11,980 nucleotides of DNA from Pseudomonadota bacterium (GTDB taxonomy: Bacteria > Pseudomonadota > Alphaproteobacteria > Rhizobiales > Hyphomicrobiaceae): positions 1-11,980 of the forward strand of contig JAEYYJ010000121.1 in the NCBI GenBank assembly GCA_023430845.1, written 5' to 3'. The position numbers and the translations under genes were made by a program. The notes under the pieces are model-generated. The model was not told the DNA's origin and searched no databases. It saw only the letters and a program-made list of their open reading frames with translations. Positions 6,372 to 10,394 of this stretch are shown one piece after another. The stretch's first letter is position 1; each line of letters opens with the position of its first letter.

Positions 6372-6589
6372 CGGCGATCATCGAGAAGACGCGGCACCTT
6401 GTGCCCTATGGCGGCTTCACCTGGGAAATCGATGTATACGACGGCGATCTTGCCGGAGTCGCTATCACTGAAATTGAACTATCCGATATGCGAACGGAAT
6501 TCGCCCGCCTTGACTGGCTTGGCACCGAAGTGACTGGAGATGAGAAGTACCGCAAGTTCAATCTCTATCACTCAGCCGGGCGTGTGTGA
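6372..6589 (+). pseudogene. CYTH-domain protein remnant, C-terminal half
   Basis: The frame is open from about 6372 (after an in-frame TGA) to TGA at 6587-6589. It reads AIIEKTRHLVPYGG, then FTWEIDVYDGDLAGVAITEI and ELSDMRTEFARLDWLG. The last line is EVTGDEKYRKFNLY. This is the second half of a CYTH domain (inorganic triphosphatase/class IV adenylate cyclase-like fold): the EKTRxxVPYGGxTWEIDVFxG strand pair and the AEIEL acidic strand are diagnostic. The N-terminal half, including the ExExK signature and the first basic strands, should lie in the ~110 bases upstream but is absent, and that stretch has stops. A GTG at 6401 could start a short product, but it would lack half the tunnel fold and half the metal and phosphate ligands. 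I read it as a 5'-truncated pseudogene. Confidence 0.75.
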
Positions 6590-6770
6590 GCTGACATTAG
6601 CTTAGTTGAGACTTGCAGCAAGAGGGCAGGCAAGCACCGAGAGCTTCCAAAAGTCATCGAGAGATTCCAGCCGTCAAAGCGCCTACATAGCTCAGACTTA
6701 TATTGCTGGATCAGACGATCTTCACGCAACCTTGACCGGCCGCGCGCGTTTGTCCGATGTCGCGCGCGCG

Positions 6771-6804
6771 TACGATCTGTCAGAGAGTACGACCTGTCAC
6801 AGAA
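6771..6804 (+). repeat. Imperfect 17-bp tandem repeat just upstream of the L,D-transpeptidase gene
   Basis: Two copies of 17 bases begin at 6771 (TACGATCTGTCAGAGAG) and 6788 (TACGACCTGTCACAGAA), with 14 of 17 positions identical. They end 18 bp before the ATG at 6823. Just before them are two CGCGCG-rich tracts. Tandem sites ~1.6 helical turns apart could be an operator, though duplication slippage is equally possible. Confidence 0.45.
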
Positions 6805-6822
6805 GTCGCGTAAGGTGTTTGG

Positions 6823-7542
6823 ATGCTTCGGTTCCTAGTTGTCCTCGCGACGCTTACGAGCGTCGCGCAATCTGCAGCCGCGCAAGACCGCATGGACTGG
6901 ATGCCTTGGAACAAGCCAGGGTATTCTGCGCCGTCATACGATCGGCCAGAGTCTCGAGAGCGCGCGCCGCCCAAGCGTCGCCTCGCGATTGACCGGGCGC
7001 CTGCGCTTCTCAAGGGAGGCCCACGCCCCGCGATAGCCTCGGTTCCTCCGGAGCCCGTAGCCTTCAACAGCGACTATGCATCCGGCACCATTGTAATCGA
7101 TACGTCCGGCCGCAAGCTCTACCTCGTGCAATCTCCGACGGAGGCGCTCGTCTATCCCATCTCCGTTGGTCGTGAGGGGTTCGCCTGGACGGGGACCGAA
7201 AGCATCAGCCGCGTGGCGGCGTGGCCCGACTGGCGCCCGCCGGCCGAGATGCGCGAGCGCGACCCGCGCCTGCCCGAAAGGATGACGGGAGGTATTCGCA
7301 ATCCACTCGGTGCGAAGGCCCTCTATCTCGGCAACACGCTCTATCGAATTCACGGCACGGACAATGAGCGCACCATTGGTCGAGCCTCCTCGTCTGGGTG
7401 CTTTCGGATGCGCAACGGCCACGTTGTCGATTTGGCGGAACGTGTCGGCATTGGCACGACGGTTGTCGTCCTCAAACAACTTCCGCAAAACGTAGCGGGA
7501 TTGGACTCTGCGCAAACCACAATGACGCCGAAACCGCAGTAG
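6823..7542 (+). CDS. L,D-transpeptidase (YkuD domain), secreted
   Basis: A 239-residue periplasmic enzyme that cuts the L,D bond of peptidoglycan tetrapeptides and forms 3-3 cross-links or anchors envelope proteins. A Sec signal peptide (MLRFLVVLATLTSVAQSAAA, cleavage near residue 20-21) is followed by a Pro/Arg-rich linker (about 30-80). The YkuD catalytic domain (about 87-217) includes IVIDTSGRKLYLV, then AAWPDWRPPAEM, and the active-site block YRIHGTDNERTIGRASSSGC then FRMRNGHVVDL. The nucleophile is Cys193, with His177 and Arg195 in the usual places. The ATG follows AAGGTG by about 6 nt. It is full length. It lies 45 bp upstream of the Tat-exported oxidase gene and probably shares its transcript. 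A second, diverged L,D-transpeptidase lies beyond that gene on the opposite strand. Confidence 0.93.
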   Translation: MLRFLVVLATLTSVAQSAAAQDRMDWMPWNKPGYSAPSYDRPESRERAPPKRRLAIDRAPALLKGGPRPAIASVPPEPVAFNSDYASGTIVIDTSGRKLYLVQSPTEALVYPISVGREGFAWTGTESISRVAAWPDWRPPAEMRERDPRLPERMTGGIRNPLGAKALYLGNTLYRIHGTDNERTIGRASSSGCFRMRNGHVVDLAERVGIGTTVVVLKQLPQNVAGLDSAQTTMTPKPQ

Positions 7543-7587
7543 GCGACCCGAACCCGAGGCGGCCCCTTTCAACAGTGGAGTGTAATC

Positions 7588-8775
7588 ATGGCGTCTTCTC
7601 GCAGGGATATCCTCAAGCGCGGTGCGGGTGTCGCGGCGACCGCTGCCGGATGGTCCTTTTTCGGGACCGCGCACGCCCAAGTGAAAGAGGAAGCGGGGAC
7701 CGATCCCCTGCAGATCACGCGCAAGGGCATCAACAAGGATCTCGAGGTCATCAACATCGACCTTCTGGAGGCGCAGGCGAAGGCCGCGCTGCCCGAGGGC
7801 GTCTACGTATTCATCGCGAACGGCAACGGCGACCAGTGGACGCTGCGCGAGAACCGGCGCGCCTTCGGCGACTACGTCTTCATGCCGCGGCGGATGGGCG
7901 GCGTCGTGAGGGCCGACATCGACACGTCCGTCACGCTCTTAGGTGAGAAGCTCCCGCATCCGGTGATCGTTTCGCCGATGGGAAGCCATGGCCTTGTCCA
8001 TCCCGCAGCTGAGCTGGCGACCGCCGAGGGTGCCGCTCGTTCCGGCGCCCTGCTCTGCGTTTCCAGCGCCTCGACGGCCGCCATGGAGGACATCGGCAAG
8101 GCCTCGACCGGGCCGAAGTGGTTCCAGATGTACCTGACTGTCGATGAGGGCGAATCGCGCGAAGTGCTGCAGCGCGTGAAACCTGCAGGGTTCAAGGCAG
8201 TCATCCTCACGATCGACGCCATCGGTCAGGGCTCATCCGATGAGTATGTTCGTCTCGGCAGGAACCGGCCCTGGCTGCCTTACGGCAACTTCCCGAAGAG
8301 CAACCCGAACGCCTTCAAGACCAATCTCAGCTGGAGTGACCTCGATTTCATCCGCAAATCGAGCGGCCTTCCGGTTTTGGTGAAGGGCGTGACGACACCG
8401 GAGGATGCTGCTGCAGCTGTGAAGGCGGGAGCCTCTGCCGTGCAGGTGTCAAACCATGGCGGCCGCGCGCTCGATGGGACGCCCGCCTCCATCTCCGTGC
8501 TGCCGAAGATTGCCGATGCAGTAAAGGGTGATGTACCGATCATCATGGACAGCGGCATCAGGCGCGGCATGGACATCGCCAAGGCGCTGGCACTCGGCGC
8601 GAACGCCGTCGCTATCGGACGCCCTGTGTGGTGGTCGCTTGCACTCGGCGGTGCTGGCGGCGTCGCCGGAGTGATGGATTACTTCAACCGGGAACTGGTG
8701 AATACGACGCTGCACCTTGGAGCGCAGAGCATTGTCAAGCTCGGCCGCGAGCACGTCACCAGAGCACCTGGGTAG
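7588..8775 (+). CDS. Tat-exported FMN-dependent alpha-hydroxy-acid oxidase/dehydrogenase family protein
   Basis: A 395-residue flavoprotein related to glycolate oxidase and L-lactate oxidase. The N-terminus carries a twin-arginine signal (SRRDILK, hydrophobic stretch, AHA-Q cleavage near residue 30), so the folded FMN enzyme should reach the periplasm. Most relatives are cytoplasmic or membrane-associated. Retained hallmarks: Gln180 and Tyr182 (FQMYL), Lys266 (VLVKGV), catalytic base His290 and Arg293 (VSNHGGRALDG), and the FMN-phosphate loops DSGIRRGMDI (321-330) and GANAVAIGRPV. By alignment from memory to spinach glycolate oxidase, Tyr24 is Phe75 and Arg164 (in GRREAD) is Ser217 (in GQGSSDEY), so two substrate-carboxylate contacts look lost. 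Substrate is therefore unclear; lactate or glycolate should not be assumed. ATG at 7588 has GGAG about 8 nt upstream. It likely shares a transcript with the upstream L,D-transpeptidase. Confidence 0.92.
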   Translation: MASSRRDILKRGAGVAATAAGWSFFGTAHAQVKEEAGTDPLQITRKGINKDLEVINIDLLEAQAKAALPEGVYVFIANGNGDQWTLRENRRAFGDYVFMPRRMGGVVRADIDTSVTLLGEKLPHPVIVSPMGSHGLVHPAAELATAEGAARSGALLCVSSASTAAMEDIGKASTGPKWFQMYLTVDEGESREVLQRVKPAGFKAVILTIDAIGQGSSDEYVRLGRNRPWLPYGNFPKSNPNAFKTNLSWSDLDFIRKSSGLPVLVKGVTTPEDAAAAVKAGASAVQVSNHGGRALDGTPASISVLPKIADAVKGDVPIIMDSGIRRGMDIAKALALGANAVAIGRPVWWSLALGGAGGVAGVMDYFNRELVNTTLHLGAQSIVKLGREHVTRAPG

Positions 8776-8814
8776 CCGCTGATACGCGGTGACGCGACGG
8801 GCGCAGTGATCTTG

Positions 8815-8829
8815 GATCGAGGCTCGATC
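8815..8829. terminator. Perfect dyad between convergent genes, possible weak bidirectional terminator
   Basis: GATCGAG-G-CTCGATC is a perfect 7-bp inverted repeat around a single base, 40 bp after the oxidase stop and 12 bp before the stop of the convergent L,D-transpeptidase. Its position suits a shared terminator, but the loop is tight and no T-run follows on either strand. It could equally be a protein-binding dyad. Confidence 0.35.
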
Positions 8830-8840
8830 GAAGTATCGAT

Positions 8841-9533
8841 TCAAACGACCAGGAGTGTCGACCCGCTGCGCACCTCGCCATAGAGGTGAATGATGTCCTG
8901 GGGTAGCAGGCGAACACAACCGCTGGACACAGCTTGACCAACGGTCCGCTCATCCGGATTCCCGTGTATGCGGTAGAGCGTATCCGTGTTGCCTTGATGA
9001 ATGTAGAGCGTGCGCGGTCCGAGCGGGTTATCAGGTCCTGGCGCCATGCCATGACGGTACTTCTCCAGCTCCGGCTCTCTAGCGATCATGTCGGAGGGCG
9101 GCGTCCATCTGGGCCATGCGCGCTTGTACGCAATGTGTGCCTTGCCCGACCACCCGAATCCGGCACGTCCAATGCCAACGCCATAGCGCGTTGCGATGCC
9201 TCCATCCTTGACGTGATAGAGAAATCGCTTCTGCGTATCGACAAAAACAGTTCCGGGCGCTTCGCCAGTCGGATCCGCCACGTCCTGACGCCAATAGCGT
9301 TCTGGGACCAACTCGACGCGAGACGCGCGAATGGGAAACGGCTCGTCTGAGACAGCAGCGTACATTGCCCGGACGTGCGGCGGCACATCCCGAGGCTCAG
9401 CGCTGCCTTTTAGATCAGCATTGCCATCAATAATTGGGATGGCCTCGATGGAGGCACATCCTGCCACCGGCAAAGCCACAAAAGTGATACCCCCAGCAAG
9501 AAACTGCCGACGTCCAATCTCTGCGCGAGTCAT
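8841..9533 (-). CDS. L,D-transpeptidase (YkuD domain) with twin-arginine lipoprotein signal
   Basis: A 230-residue envelope enzyme. The N-terminus MTRAEIGRRQFLAGG has a twin-arginine motif (GRRQFL) followed by a hydrophobic stretch and a lipobox ending VAGC (Cys26). The mature protein would be a lipoprotein exported by Tat, an unusual combination for a transpeptidase. The YkuD domain (about 94-230) has VFVDTQKRFLYHV, then AWPRWTPPSDMI, and the active-site block YRIHGNPDERTVGQAVSSGC then VRLLPQDIIHLY. The nucleophile is Cys206, with His190 and Arg208. It ends right after the domain. It resembles the Sec-type L,D-transpeptidase at 6823-7542 in domain order and motifs but differs in export signal and linker. 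It is convergent with the Tat-exported oxidase. The ribosome binding site is weak (GACGGA close to the ATG at 9533). Confidence 0.93.
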   Translation of the reverse strand: MTRAEIGRRQFLAGGITFVALPVAGCASIEAIPIIDGNADLKGSAEPRDVPPHVRAMYAAVSDEPFPIRASRVELVPERYWRQDVADPTGEAPGTVFVDTQKRFLYHVKDGGIATRYGVGIGRAGFGWSGKAHIAYKRAWPRWTPPSDMIAREPELEKYRHGMAPGPDNPLGPRTLYIHQGNTDTLYRIHGNPDERTVGQAVSSGCVRLLPQDIIHLYGEVRSGSTLLVV

Positions 9534-9832
9534 TCCGTCGATCTCATAATCTTATCCGCCCCCGATTTGCGGCGCTCTGCATCGCGGCACGGCTCCGAGA
9601 TCGGAGAATTGCACCGAAGCCCCCGTCCAAATCTCTCACCGAGCACCAGCTGGACATGAAGCAGCCCGCCAAACGGCGTCGACGTGGACGCGCGAACTGG
9701 CGGGCTGCAACGCTCGTTTCTAGCGATCAGCGTTACCCATTCCCCGACTGGCTTTACCGCATTTCCAAGCAAGGGCGAGGCGCGGAGTGCCGCACTCTGC
9801 CTTGGGGCAGGCGGCACGTCGCCGCATATTGC
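9534..9832. other. About 300 bp without a recognisable gene
   Basis: This stretch lies between the start of the lipoprotein L,D-transpeptidase gene and the SDR remnant. It should contain the transpeptidase promoter (minus strand), but I see no convincing -35/-10 pair. It holds one strong hairpin at 9661-9708. Open frames here give no recognisable protein text. Confidence 0.5.
9661..9708. repeat. Large hairpin: 11-bp perfect outer stem plus inner stem
   Basis: The outer arms GCAGCCCGCCA (9661-9671) and TGGCGGGCTGC (9698-9708) are exact reverse complements. Inside, GCGTC (9676-9680) pairs with GACGC (9687-9691) around a 6-base loop. Together they form a 48-nt cruciform or RNA hairpin. Only a weak TTTC follows on the plus strand, and no upstream plus-strand gene needs a terminator here. 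It may be a structured RNA or a remnant of a mobile-element end. Confidence 0.6.
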
Positions 9833-10124
9833 CTATCGATAGACAAGTCCGCCGTCGATCAACGGCGCCTGCCCCGTCATGTAGTCTGCGTCCGGACCCC
9901 GCCAGGAACGAAACGAATGCGGCGACATCTTCCGGCGTCTGCGCCCGCCCCAAGGCGATGCCCTTGACATACTTCTCATAGGTTGCCCCGATCGGGACGC
10001 CCGTGATCTCGGCAAACCGCTTGTTGATCTCGACCCACATGTCGGTTCCTACGAGGCCGGGGCAGTACGCGTTCACGGTGATCCCATCTCTGGTGAATTC
10101 CTTGGCCGCAGCTTGGGGCAGGGC
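9833..10124 (-). pseudogene. Short-chain dehydrogenase/reductase remnant (acetoin/diacetyl reductase-like), frameshifted
   Basis: Minus-strand text from about 10124 reads ALPQAAAKEFTRDGITVNAY, then CPGLVGTDMWVEINKRFAEI. It continues TPEDVAAFVSFLAG near 9897, then switches frame to GPDADYMTGQAPLIDGGLVY and a terminal R, ending in a stop at 9833. This is the C-terminal half of a classical SDR of the acetoin reductase/butanediol dehydrogenase type. The A-A-A-K-E helix after the catalytic YxxxK, the PG-x-V-x-T motif, and the C-terminal TGQ-x-x-x-x-DGG are all visible. The Rossmann N-terminus (GxxxGxG) and the catalytic Tyr/Lys are missing. The frame change falls at a GGGG run (CCCC on plus, 9897-9900); one base fewer restores the frame. 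It is a 5'-truncated, frameshifted relic without expected activity. Confidence 0.8.
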
Positions 10125-10394
10125 AGGTGCGCGGCACATTGCGCCTCAATGCGCCCGTATCATTCGGTATACGCGAGATTGCGCCGCGACTTCCCGGGCT
10201 AGCGGCACAACATCTAGCACTCACGATCGACCGATTGATTTTCTGGCGGCGCGCCTGGGGCCGGTGCCGCCTTGGGATTGACTACAGAGCTGCGCTCACA
10301 CCCGTCCGGAGACAGTTTCCGCTATGCGCCGACAGTCGCACCTCATTCGTGAGCGACAGCCATAGTCGTACTAAGTCGAGACATAGCGCGCCGT
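10125..10394. other. Gene-free stretch between two 5'-truncated remnants
   Basis: No coding text, tRNA or repeat could be supported here. The upstream (N-terminal) half of the SDR would be expected in this interval on the minus strand but is absent, placing a deletion or rearrangement junction near 10124. Confidence 0.45.

Follow-up and report, generated by a model that had tools for sequence, protein, structure and literature searches.

A lactate-oxidase-like FMN protein with a putative twin-arginine signal belongs to a clade lacking the lid-latch arginine

The window, that is the whole 11,980-nucleotide stretch of DNA analyzed here, encodes a protein that raises a question of substrate: what would an FMN-dependent enzyme oxidize if it keeps the catalytic residues of the 2-hydroxy acid oxidases but lacks two of the residues with which glycolate and lactate oxidases hold their substrate? 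The original prediction for this gene described a twin-arginine signal and a complete FMN TIM barrel, and proposed either that the substrate is not a simple 2-hydroxy acid or that the protein represents a new sub-family. The reading favored here, to which a probability of about 0.5 is assigned, is that the window protein acts in the periplasm as an FMN oxidase or dehydrogenase and represents a separate Tat-exported sub-family that is sister to the L-lactate oxidases and has an opened and less acid-selective pocket.

Results

The gene, its putative signals and the codons of the residues discussed below are located in the window as follows.

7577..7580, + strand: GGAG, likely Shine-Dalgarno sequence, 7 bases 5' of the ATG (read from the sequence)
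7588..8775, + strand: Tat-signal FMN-dependent oxidoreductase, lactate-oxidase-like, 395 amino acids (P0001; PF01070, E 2.1e-104)
7588..7677, + strand: putative twin-arginine signal peptide, residues 1-30 (SRRDILK ... AHA/Q; sequence read by eye)
7810..7812, + strand: Phe75 codon, at the position of lactate oxidase (LOX) Tyr40 and glycolate oxidase (GOX) Tyr24 (alignments)
8131..8133, + strand: Tyr182 codon, equivalent to LOX Tyr146 and GOX Tyr129, kept (alignments; 120/120 best-listed homologues)
8218..8382, + strand: residues 211-265, containing loop 4 and the segment preceding Lys266 (alignments)
8236..8238, + strand: Ser217 codon, at the position of LOX Arg181 and GOX Arg164 (alignments)
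8383..8385, + strand: Lys266 codon, equivalent to LOX Lys241, kept (alignments; 120/120 best-listed homologues)
8455..8457, + strand: His290 codon, catalytic base, equivalent to LOX His265 and GOX His254 (alignments; 120/120 best-listed homologues)
8464..8466, + strand: Arg293 codon, carboxylate Arg, equivalent to LOX Arg268 and GOX Arg257 (alignments; 120/120 best-listed homologues)

The PF01070 (FMN_dh) profile matched the window protein almost end to end (residues 64-391; profile positions 1-349 of 350) with a score of 349.7 bits against a gathering threshold of 24.9, and the nearest solved relatives were lactate oxidases, with 37-39% identity. The cut-offs of the more specific profiles were missed: TIGR02708 for L-lactate oxidase (289.9 versus 645.5 bits), TIGR03966 for the pre-mycofactocin synthase MftD, which was the second-best NCBIfam profile (228.1 versus 470.85 bits), and the LldD profiles NF033901 (201.3 versus 550 bits) and NF008398 (218.3 versus 376 bits).

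To place the active-site residues, HMMER alignments to the Aerococcus viridans lactate oxidase chains and a MAFFT alignment with lactate oxidase and spinach glycolate oxidase were performed, and both agree. The full-length FMN_dh match and the alignment of His290, Arg293, Lys266 and Tyr182 to their counterparts uphold the complete FMN TIM barrel of the original prediction, and its assignment of Phe75 to the Tyr24 site and of Ser217 (in GQGSSDEY) to the Arg164 site was reproduced with correct numbering. Asp210, the counterpart of GOX Asp157, is also kept (120/120 best-listed homologues), and the catalytic set of the FMN_dh family (His and the Tyr129-, Asp157-, Lys230- and Arg257-type residues) is complete in the alignment. 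The FMN TIM barrel is shared with spinach glycolate oxidase and human HAO1, and spinach Tyr129, Asp157, Lys230, His254 and Arg257 all have counterparts in the window protein, which differs from the spinach enzyme in Phe for Tyr24, Ser for Arg164 and a Tat-type signal. The same three differences, as Phe for Tyr40, Ser for Arg181 and the signal, separate it from the L-lactate oxidases of A. viridans and Pediococcus acidilactici. The seven conserved active-site residues of S-2-hydroxyacid oxidases (EC 1.1.3.15) are taken to include Tyr24 and Arg164. Judged by these seven residues, the window protein departs from the set at Phe75 and Ser217.

Of 7995 candidates scored in a homologue search with the window protein, 1641 proteins reached E<=1e-3. 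Conservation was counted in the best 120 of these, window protein included, a choice that favors conservation; given that these rows are 65-100% identical to the window protein, the counts are partly a product of that choice. Among the best 120 of 1641, Phe75 was found in 119 with 1 gap and Ser217 in 120/120, while Gln214, Tyr220 and Pro231 (each 120/120) and Trp229 (119/120) form a series of fixed residues in the pocket region, and Arg325 and Arg345, aligned to FMN-site residues, have been retained. A second search, performed with a relative from a Klebsiella plasmid (44% identical), returned 6171 proteins, of which the best 120 plus the query make up a sister set of 121 rows (P0121 and P0122 being the same protein). 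Here, position 75 was Phe in 103 rows and Tyr in 18, and position 217 was Ser in 81, Pro in 39, Asn in 1 and Arg in none. Arg is therefore absent from both the close and the sister set, Tyr survives in part of the sister set, and the window protein is no lone mutant: the Phe75/Ser217 pattern generalizes to its clade.

As a control, five genomes were searched for matching proteins. The 45 rows obtained comprised 6 of the close group, 33 other FMN_dh rows and 6 short or weak matches that were dropped, and the 33 rows represent 17 FMN_dh paralogue places in four of the five genomes. Position 75 was Tyr in 16 paralogues and Phe in 1, and position 217 was Arg in 16 and Pro in 1. Given that the two exceptions are different proteins, the double loss marks the Tat groups in this comparison, and single changes occur elsewhere; an actinobacterial relative (L010) has Phe at the Tyr24 position with the Arg kept.

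At the N terminus, a twin-arginine motif, a hydrophobic stretch and an AxA cleavage site were all recognized by eye, and the predicted structure has low model confidence for residues 1-31. Arg occupies the column of residue 5 in 99 and that of residue 6 in 98 of the best 120 of 1641 homologues, in keeping with the putative signal SRRDILK as first proposed. An RR pair within the first 45 residues was present in 98/120 best-listed close rows and in 110/121 sister rows. Most of the 22 close rows without it are truncated or start just past the point where the motif would be expected; three carry variants (one SRD, two SRK); of the 11 such sister rows, eight (Psychrobacter type) start near the domain. 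From these signals the window protein is predicted to be Tat-exported and periplasmic.

To establish the relationship between these groups, a tree of 61 proteins, including 21 of the 120 close rows and 21 of the 121 sister rows, was calculated with IQ-TREE (LG+C20+F+G4 by PMSF) and rooted at the midpoint; several of the paralogues in it are long-branched. The close group formed one clade (100/100), as did the sister group with weaker support (97/68), and the two together formed one clade (100/99). In this midpoint-rooted tree, the joint clade is attached to the two lactate oxidases at 99/95, apart from the paralogues. True L-lactate oxidases are stated to lie in a single clade in excerpts of PMC11238220. 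The groups recovered here, one clade with no Arg at 217 and a short loop 4, are named the Tat-exported lactate-oxidase-like clade in this analysis. Of the two proposals in the original prediction, the sub-family is thus supported by the clade (100/100), the fixed Phe75 and Ser217, the Tat signal in most rows and the short loop 4, and the other substrate is plausible but unproven. The sister Tat group includes proteins from Klebsiella plasmids, uropathogenic E. coli, Neisseria, [Pasteurella] aerogenes, Psychrobacter and others. Like the group of the window protein, it carries a Tat signal in the majority of rows, lacks Arg at 217, has mostly Phe at 75 and possesses a short loop 4; it is distinguished by the motif GPGx(S/P)(D/E)xF in place of GQGSSDEY and by a loop stretch that is six residues longer.

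Loop 4 is the active-site lid. In A. viridans LOX, according to excerpts of PMC4908395, Arg181 bonds Tyr215 and helps to fasten this lid, with some contact to the carboxylate, and the carboxylate pocket consists of Tyr40 and Arg268; the corresponding Arg164 of glycolate oxidase is described as invariant and mobile in excerpts of PMC10153336. The stretch from Asp210 to Lys266 inclusive spans 57 residues in the window protein and in 20/21 close members (58 in the remaining one) and 63 in 21/21 sister members. By comparison, it spans 68 residues in the two lactate oxidases, 66-114 in the 17 paralogues, 74 in spinach glycolate oxidase and 87 in the actinobacterial relative. The stretch of the window protein is thus 11 residues shorter than that of LOX and 17 shorter than that of the spinach enzyme, and the two Tat groups have the shortest stretches of all sequences compared. 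Pro240 of the window protein falls at LOX Tyr215 in the alignments, although these are unsure within the loop. Subject to the same uncertainty of the loop alignments, a missing latch Arg and a shortened lid are found together here.

Selection was assessed from dN/dS in eight DNA copies of the gene (28 pairs, 26 with a defined value), the split copy L007 and the partly matched copy L009 being left out. Values of 0.015-0.20 were obtained across these 26 pairs, with 0.015 for the closest pair (L002/L003; dS 0.98). For the window gene against the seven other copies, the range was 0.08-0.20 at dS of 1.3-3.0, where saturation makes the values rough. No internal stop was present in the eight genes compared. 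Such low dN/dS is indicative of purifying selection and therefore argues against a dead enzyme. The gene of a 76-79% identical relative in Pseudaminobacter manganicus (L007, 8001-9174) is split over two frames, either as a broken gene or through an assembly error.

The surroundings of the gene were compared by clustering mechanically called open reading frames from ten loci (the window and nine relatives), with genes of the relatives named by eye. In the window, 45 bases separate a YkuD L,D-transpeptidase gene (6823-7542, + strand) from the oxidase gene, which follows it on that strand; another YkuD gene (8841-9533, - strand) lies 3' of the oxidase gene on the opposite strand. The product of this second YkuD gene has the twin-arginine stretch GRRQFL at its start and then a lipobox-like LPVAGC. 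YkuD, oxidase and YkuD are thus probably three exported proteins in a row; no match to the two YkuD genes was found among the open reading frames of the nine relatives' loci. Besides the oxidase itself, the widest neighbor family was LysR-regulator-like and occurred in 4/10 loci, the other six families being confined to two loci each. One of the six comprises the CoA-transferase gene of the window and a gene of L008, each distant from the oxidase. Two others are a GST-like gene found upstream in L002 and L009 and a DedA-like gene found downstream in L002 and L003. An operon or pathway was considered and rejected: no neighbor is conserved across the ten loci and none names a substrate, and because no neighbor recurs widely, no pathway is claimed. 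Elsewhere in the window, the gene at 9720-10139 (- strand) looks truncated or frame-shifted: of a short-chain dehydrogenase, it encodes just the C-terminal portion (profile positions 155-220 of 236). Two records of a plasmid collection matched the window DNA, only over 9837-10085, where the identity to Rhodococcus plasmid genes annotated as acetoin reductase is 74.8%.

In the sister group, the oxidase of E. coli 536 and UPEC 26-1 (L045 and L046, both 6426-9478) lies in the order TetR, YybH, oxidase, DoxX, with TetR in the opposite direction; no study of this oxidase was found in the open-licence literature. In Klebsiella pneumoniae (L019, 10001-11643), the oxidase is followed by DoxX on a conjugative IncFIB/IncFII plasmid, and on a Cupriavidus plasmid by a hypothetical gene and a pirin gene, not DoxX. 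Such neighborhoods suggest that the oxidase may have a membrane partner in some hosts of the sister group, but they are not direct evidence on the window gene. The E. coli 536 and UPEC 26-1 region adjoins fimbrial genes. Two further associations were considered and set aside. The first was a Klebsiella metal island, where genes for an iron ABC transporter, ZigA and a repressor occur close to the relative; none of them is beside the window gene. The second was rcrARB, the UPEC hypochlorite-resistance operon, suggested by the TetR and DoxX flanks; RcrB is described as a DUF417 protein, and the excerpted main text of PMC9600549 contains neither "DoxX" nor "lactate".

The DNA of the Klebsiella gene matched in 348 of 5,426 E. 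coli genomes at 60-80% identity (250 with at least 80% query coverage), matches that need not all belong to this group. For the close group, and with the seed genome included in each count, matches were found in 1/289 genomes of the class of G001 (E<=1e-70), 5/268 of the family of G002 (E<=1e-110), 5/297 of the family of G001 (E<=1e-70) and 5/200 of the family of G003 (E<=1e-70). Three matches in each of the last two families are only 40-50% identical and therefore probably lie outside the close group. A sister-group query matched 1/369 genomes of the class of G002 (E<=1e-75), the match being the close-group gene of the seed genome. The close group thus looks rare at strict cut-offs.

Discussion

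On the favored reading, the window protein would fold with FMN in the cytoplasm and then leave folded via Tat. His290 would take the proton of the substrate hydroxyl, as in lactate oxidase, with Tyr182 and Arg293 holding the substrate over the flavin, to which the alpha-hydrogen would pass. What would be altered is the holding of the substrate, given the lack of a Tyr hydroxyl at Phe75 and of a carboxylate-touching lid-latch Arg at Ser217, together with the shortened lid. Such a pocket should be opened up and discriminate less in favor of a small free carboxylate, and may accept more readily larger or neutral alpha-hydroxy carbonyl compounds, for example amides or esters.

For one of the two residues, the proposal of another substrate has a good precedent in 4-hydroxymandelate oxidase (Hmo), for which positions are taken from the numbering of the paper and not from a letter alignment. 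As described in excerpts of PMC6677016, a natural Phe24 lines the Hmo pocket, Arg163 and Arg255 contact the carboxylic end of the hydroxy acid, and the enzyme uses a 2-hydroxy acid despite this Phe. Phe75 is therefore not decisive and is compatible with a hydroxy acid. Given that Phe at the Tyr24 site also occurs in 1/17 paralogues and, with the Arg kept, in the actinobacterial relative, only loss of the Arg discriminates, and Hmo keeps Arg163 where the window protein has Ser. Activity was lost in the Hmo mutants R163A, H252F and R255A, whereas the low-activity mutant R163L oxidizes the neutral (S)-mandelamide to the ketoamide (PMC6677016, excerpts); crystals of R163L revealed a flavin adduct of the amide (PMC6778850, excerpts). 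By extension from one enzyme to another, Ser217 thus leads one to expect that free acids are used poorly and that neutral substrates may be used. In a set of recombinant family members, at least one of the seven conserved residues was missing in 8/10 inactive proteins and in 2/14 active ones, 12/14 active proteins having all seven, a strong rule, but one that its authors call not absolute (PMC8491902, excerpts). On this evidence the window protein may plausibly act on something besides a simple 2-hydroxy acid. Several points count against the favored reading, among them that Arg293 might hold a carboxylate alone, that Hmo uses 2-hydroxy acids with its natural Phe24, that 2/14 active family members were short of a conserved residue, that 18/121 sister rows keep Tyr75, and that one paralogue has Pro in place of the Arg. 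In the open-licence literature, no substrate, activity or electron acceptor was found for any member of the Tat group, nor was a paper on the group or one joining lactate oxidase with twin-arginine; an alpha-hydroxy-acid oxidizing enzyme that could not be assigned to the Tat group is mentioned in excerpts of PMC12507848 and PMC7921472.

The most serious alternative, which we consider possible though somewhat unlikely, is an ordinary periplasmic L-2-hydroxy acid oxidase or dehydrogenase, in which Arg293 alone holds the carboxylate, Phe75 acts like Phe24 of Hmo and lactate, or else a medium or aromatic 2-hydroxy acid, serves as substrate. With Arg293 in the place of LOX Arg268, binding of a carboxylate would still be possible; the catalytic His, Tyr and Lys are likewise intact, the closest solved structures and the sister lineage in the tree are lactate oxidases, and many listed members are named lactate oxidase by JGI, a name given automatically. 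This alternative has to accommodate Ser at the Arg181 site in 120/120 best-listed homologues, the short loop 4 with Pro at LOX Tyr215 in an unsure alignment, the effects of R163A and R163L in Hmo, and a TIGR02708 score less than half of its cut-off.

MftD, a mycofactocin enzyme with the FMN_dh fold, performs C-N oxidation. Oxidation of a different bond in the MftD manner, such as a C-N bond in a modified peptide or small amine, would suit both the rank of TIGR03966 among the NCBIfam profiles and a rebuilt pocket region with its own fixed residues Gln214, Tyr220, Trp229 and Pro231. It is nevertheless improbable, given that the score is far under the MftD cut-off, that the hydroxy-acid catalytic set is complete, and that no mycofactocin-type gene was recognized in the nine window open reading frames scanned (one of which matched no family). 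A copy that has lost or is losing catalysis, and that either serves as a flavoprotein scaffold or drifts, would explain the two missing pocket residues and the split P. manganicus gene, but is very unlikely in view of the retained catalytic residues and FMN-site Arg325 and Arg345, the low dN/dS and the uninterrupted reading frames.

The favored reading, a Tat-exported sub-family with an opened pocket, bears on annotation. Members are named lactate oxidase, alpha-hydroxy-acid oxidizing protein and even histidine kinase, yet they are without the Arg that, when replaced in a studied relative, left hydroxy-acid oxidation abolished or much reduced. Were another substrate the true one, a family found in environmental proteobacteria, on Klebsiella plasmids and in some E. 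coli would be misnamed, and a periplasmic redox reaction would await discovery. The database name histidine kinase, carried by P0058, P0177, P0217 and P0219, is an evident misnaming of FMN_dh proteins.
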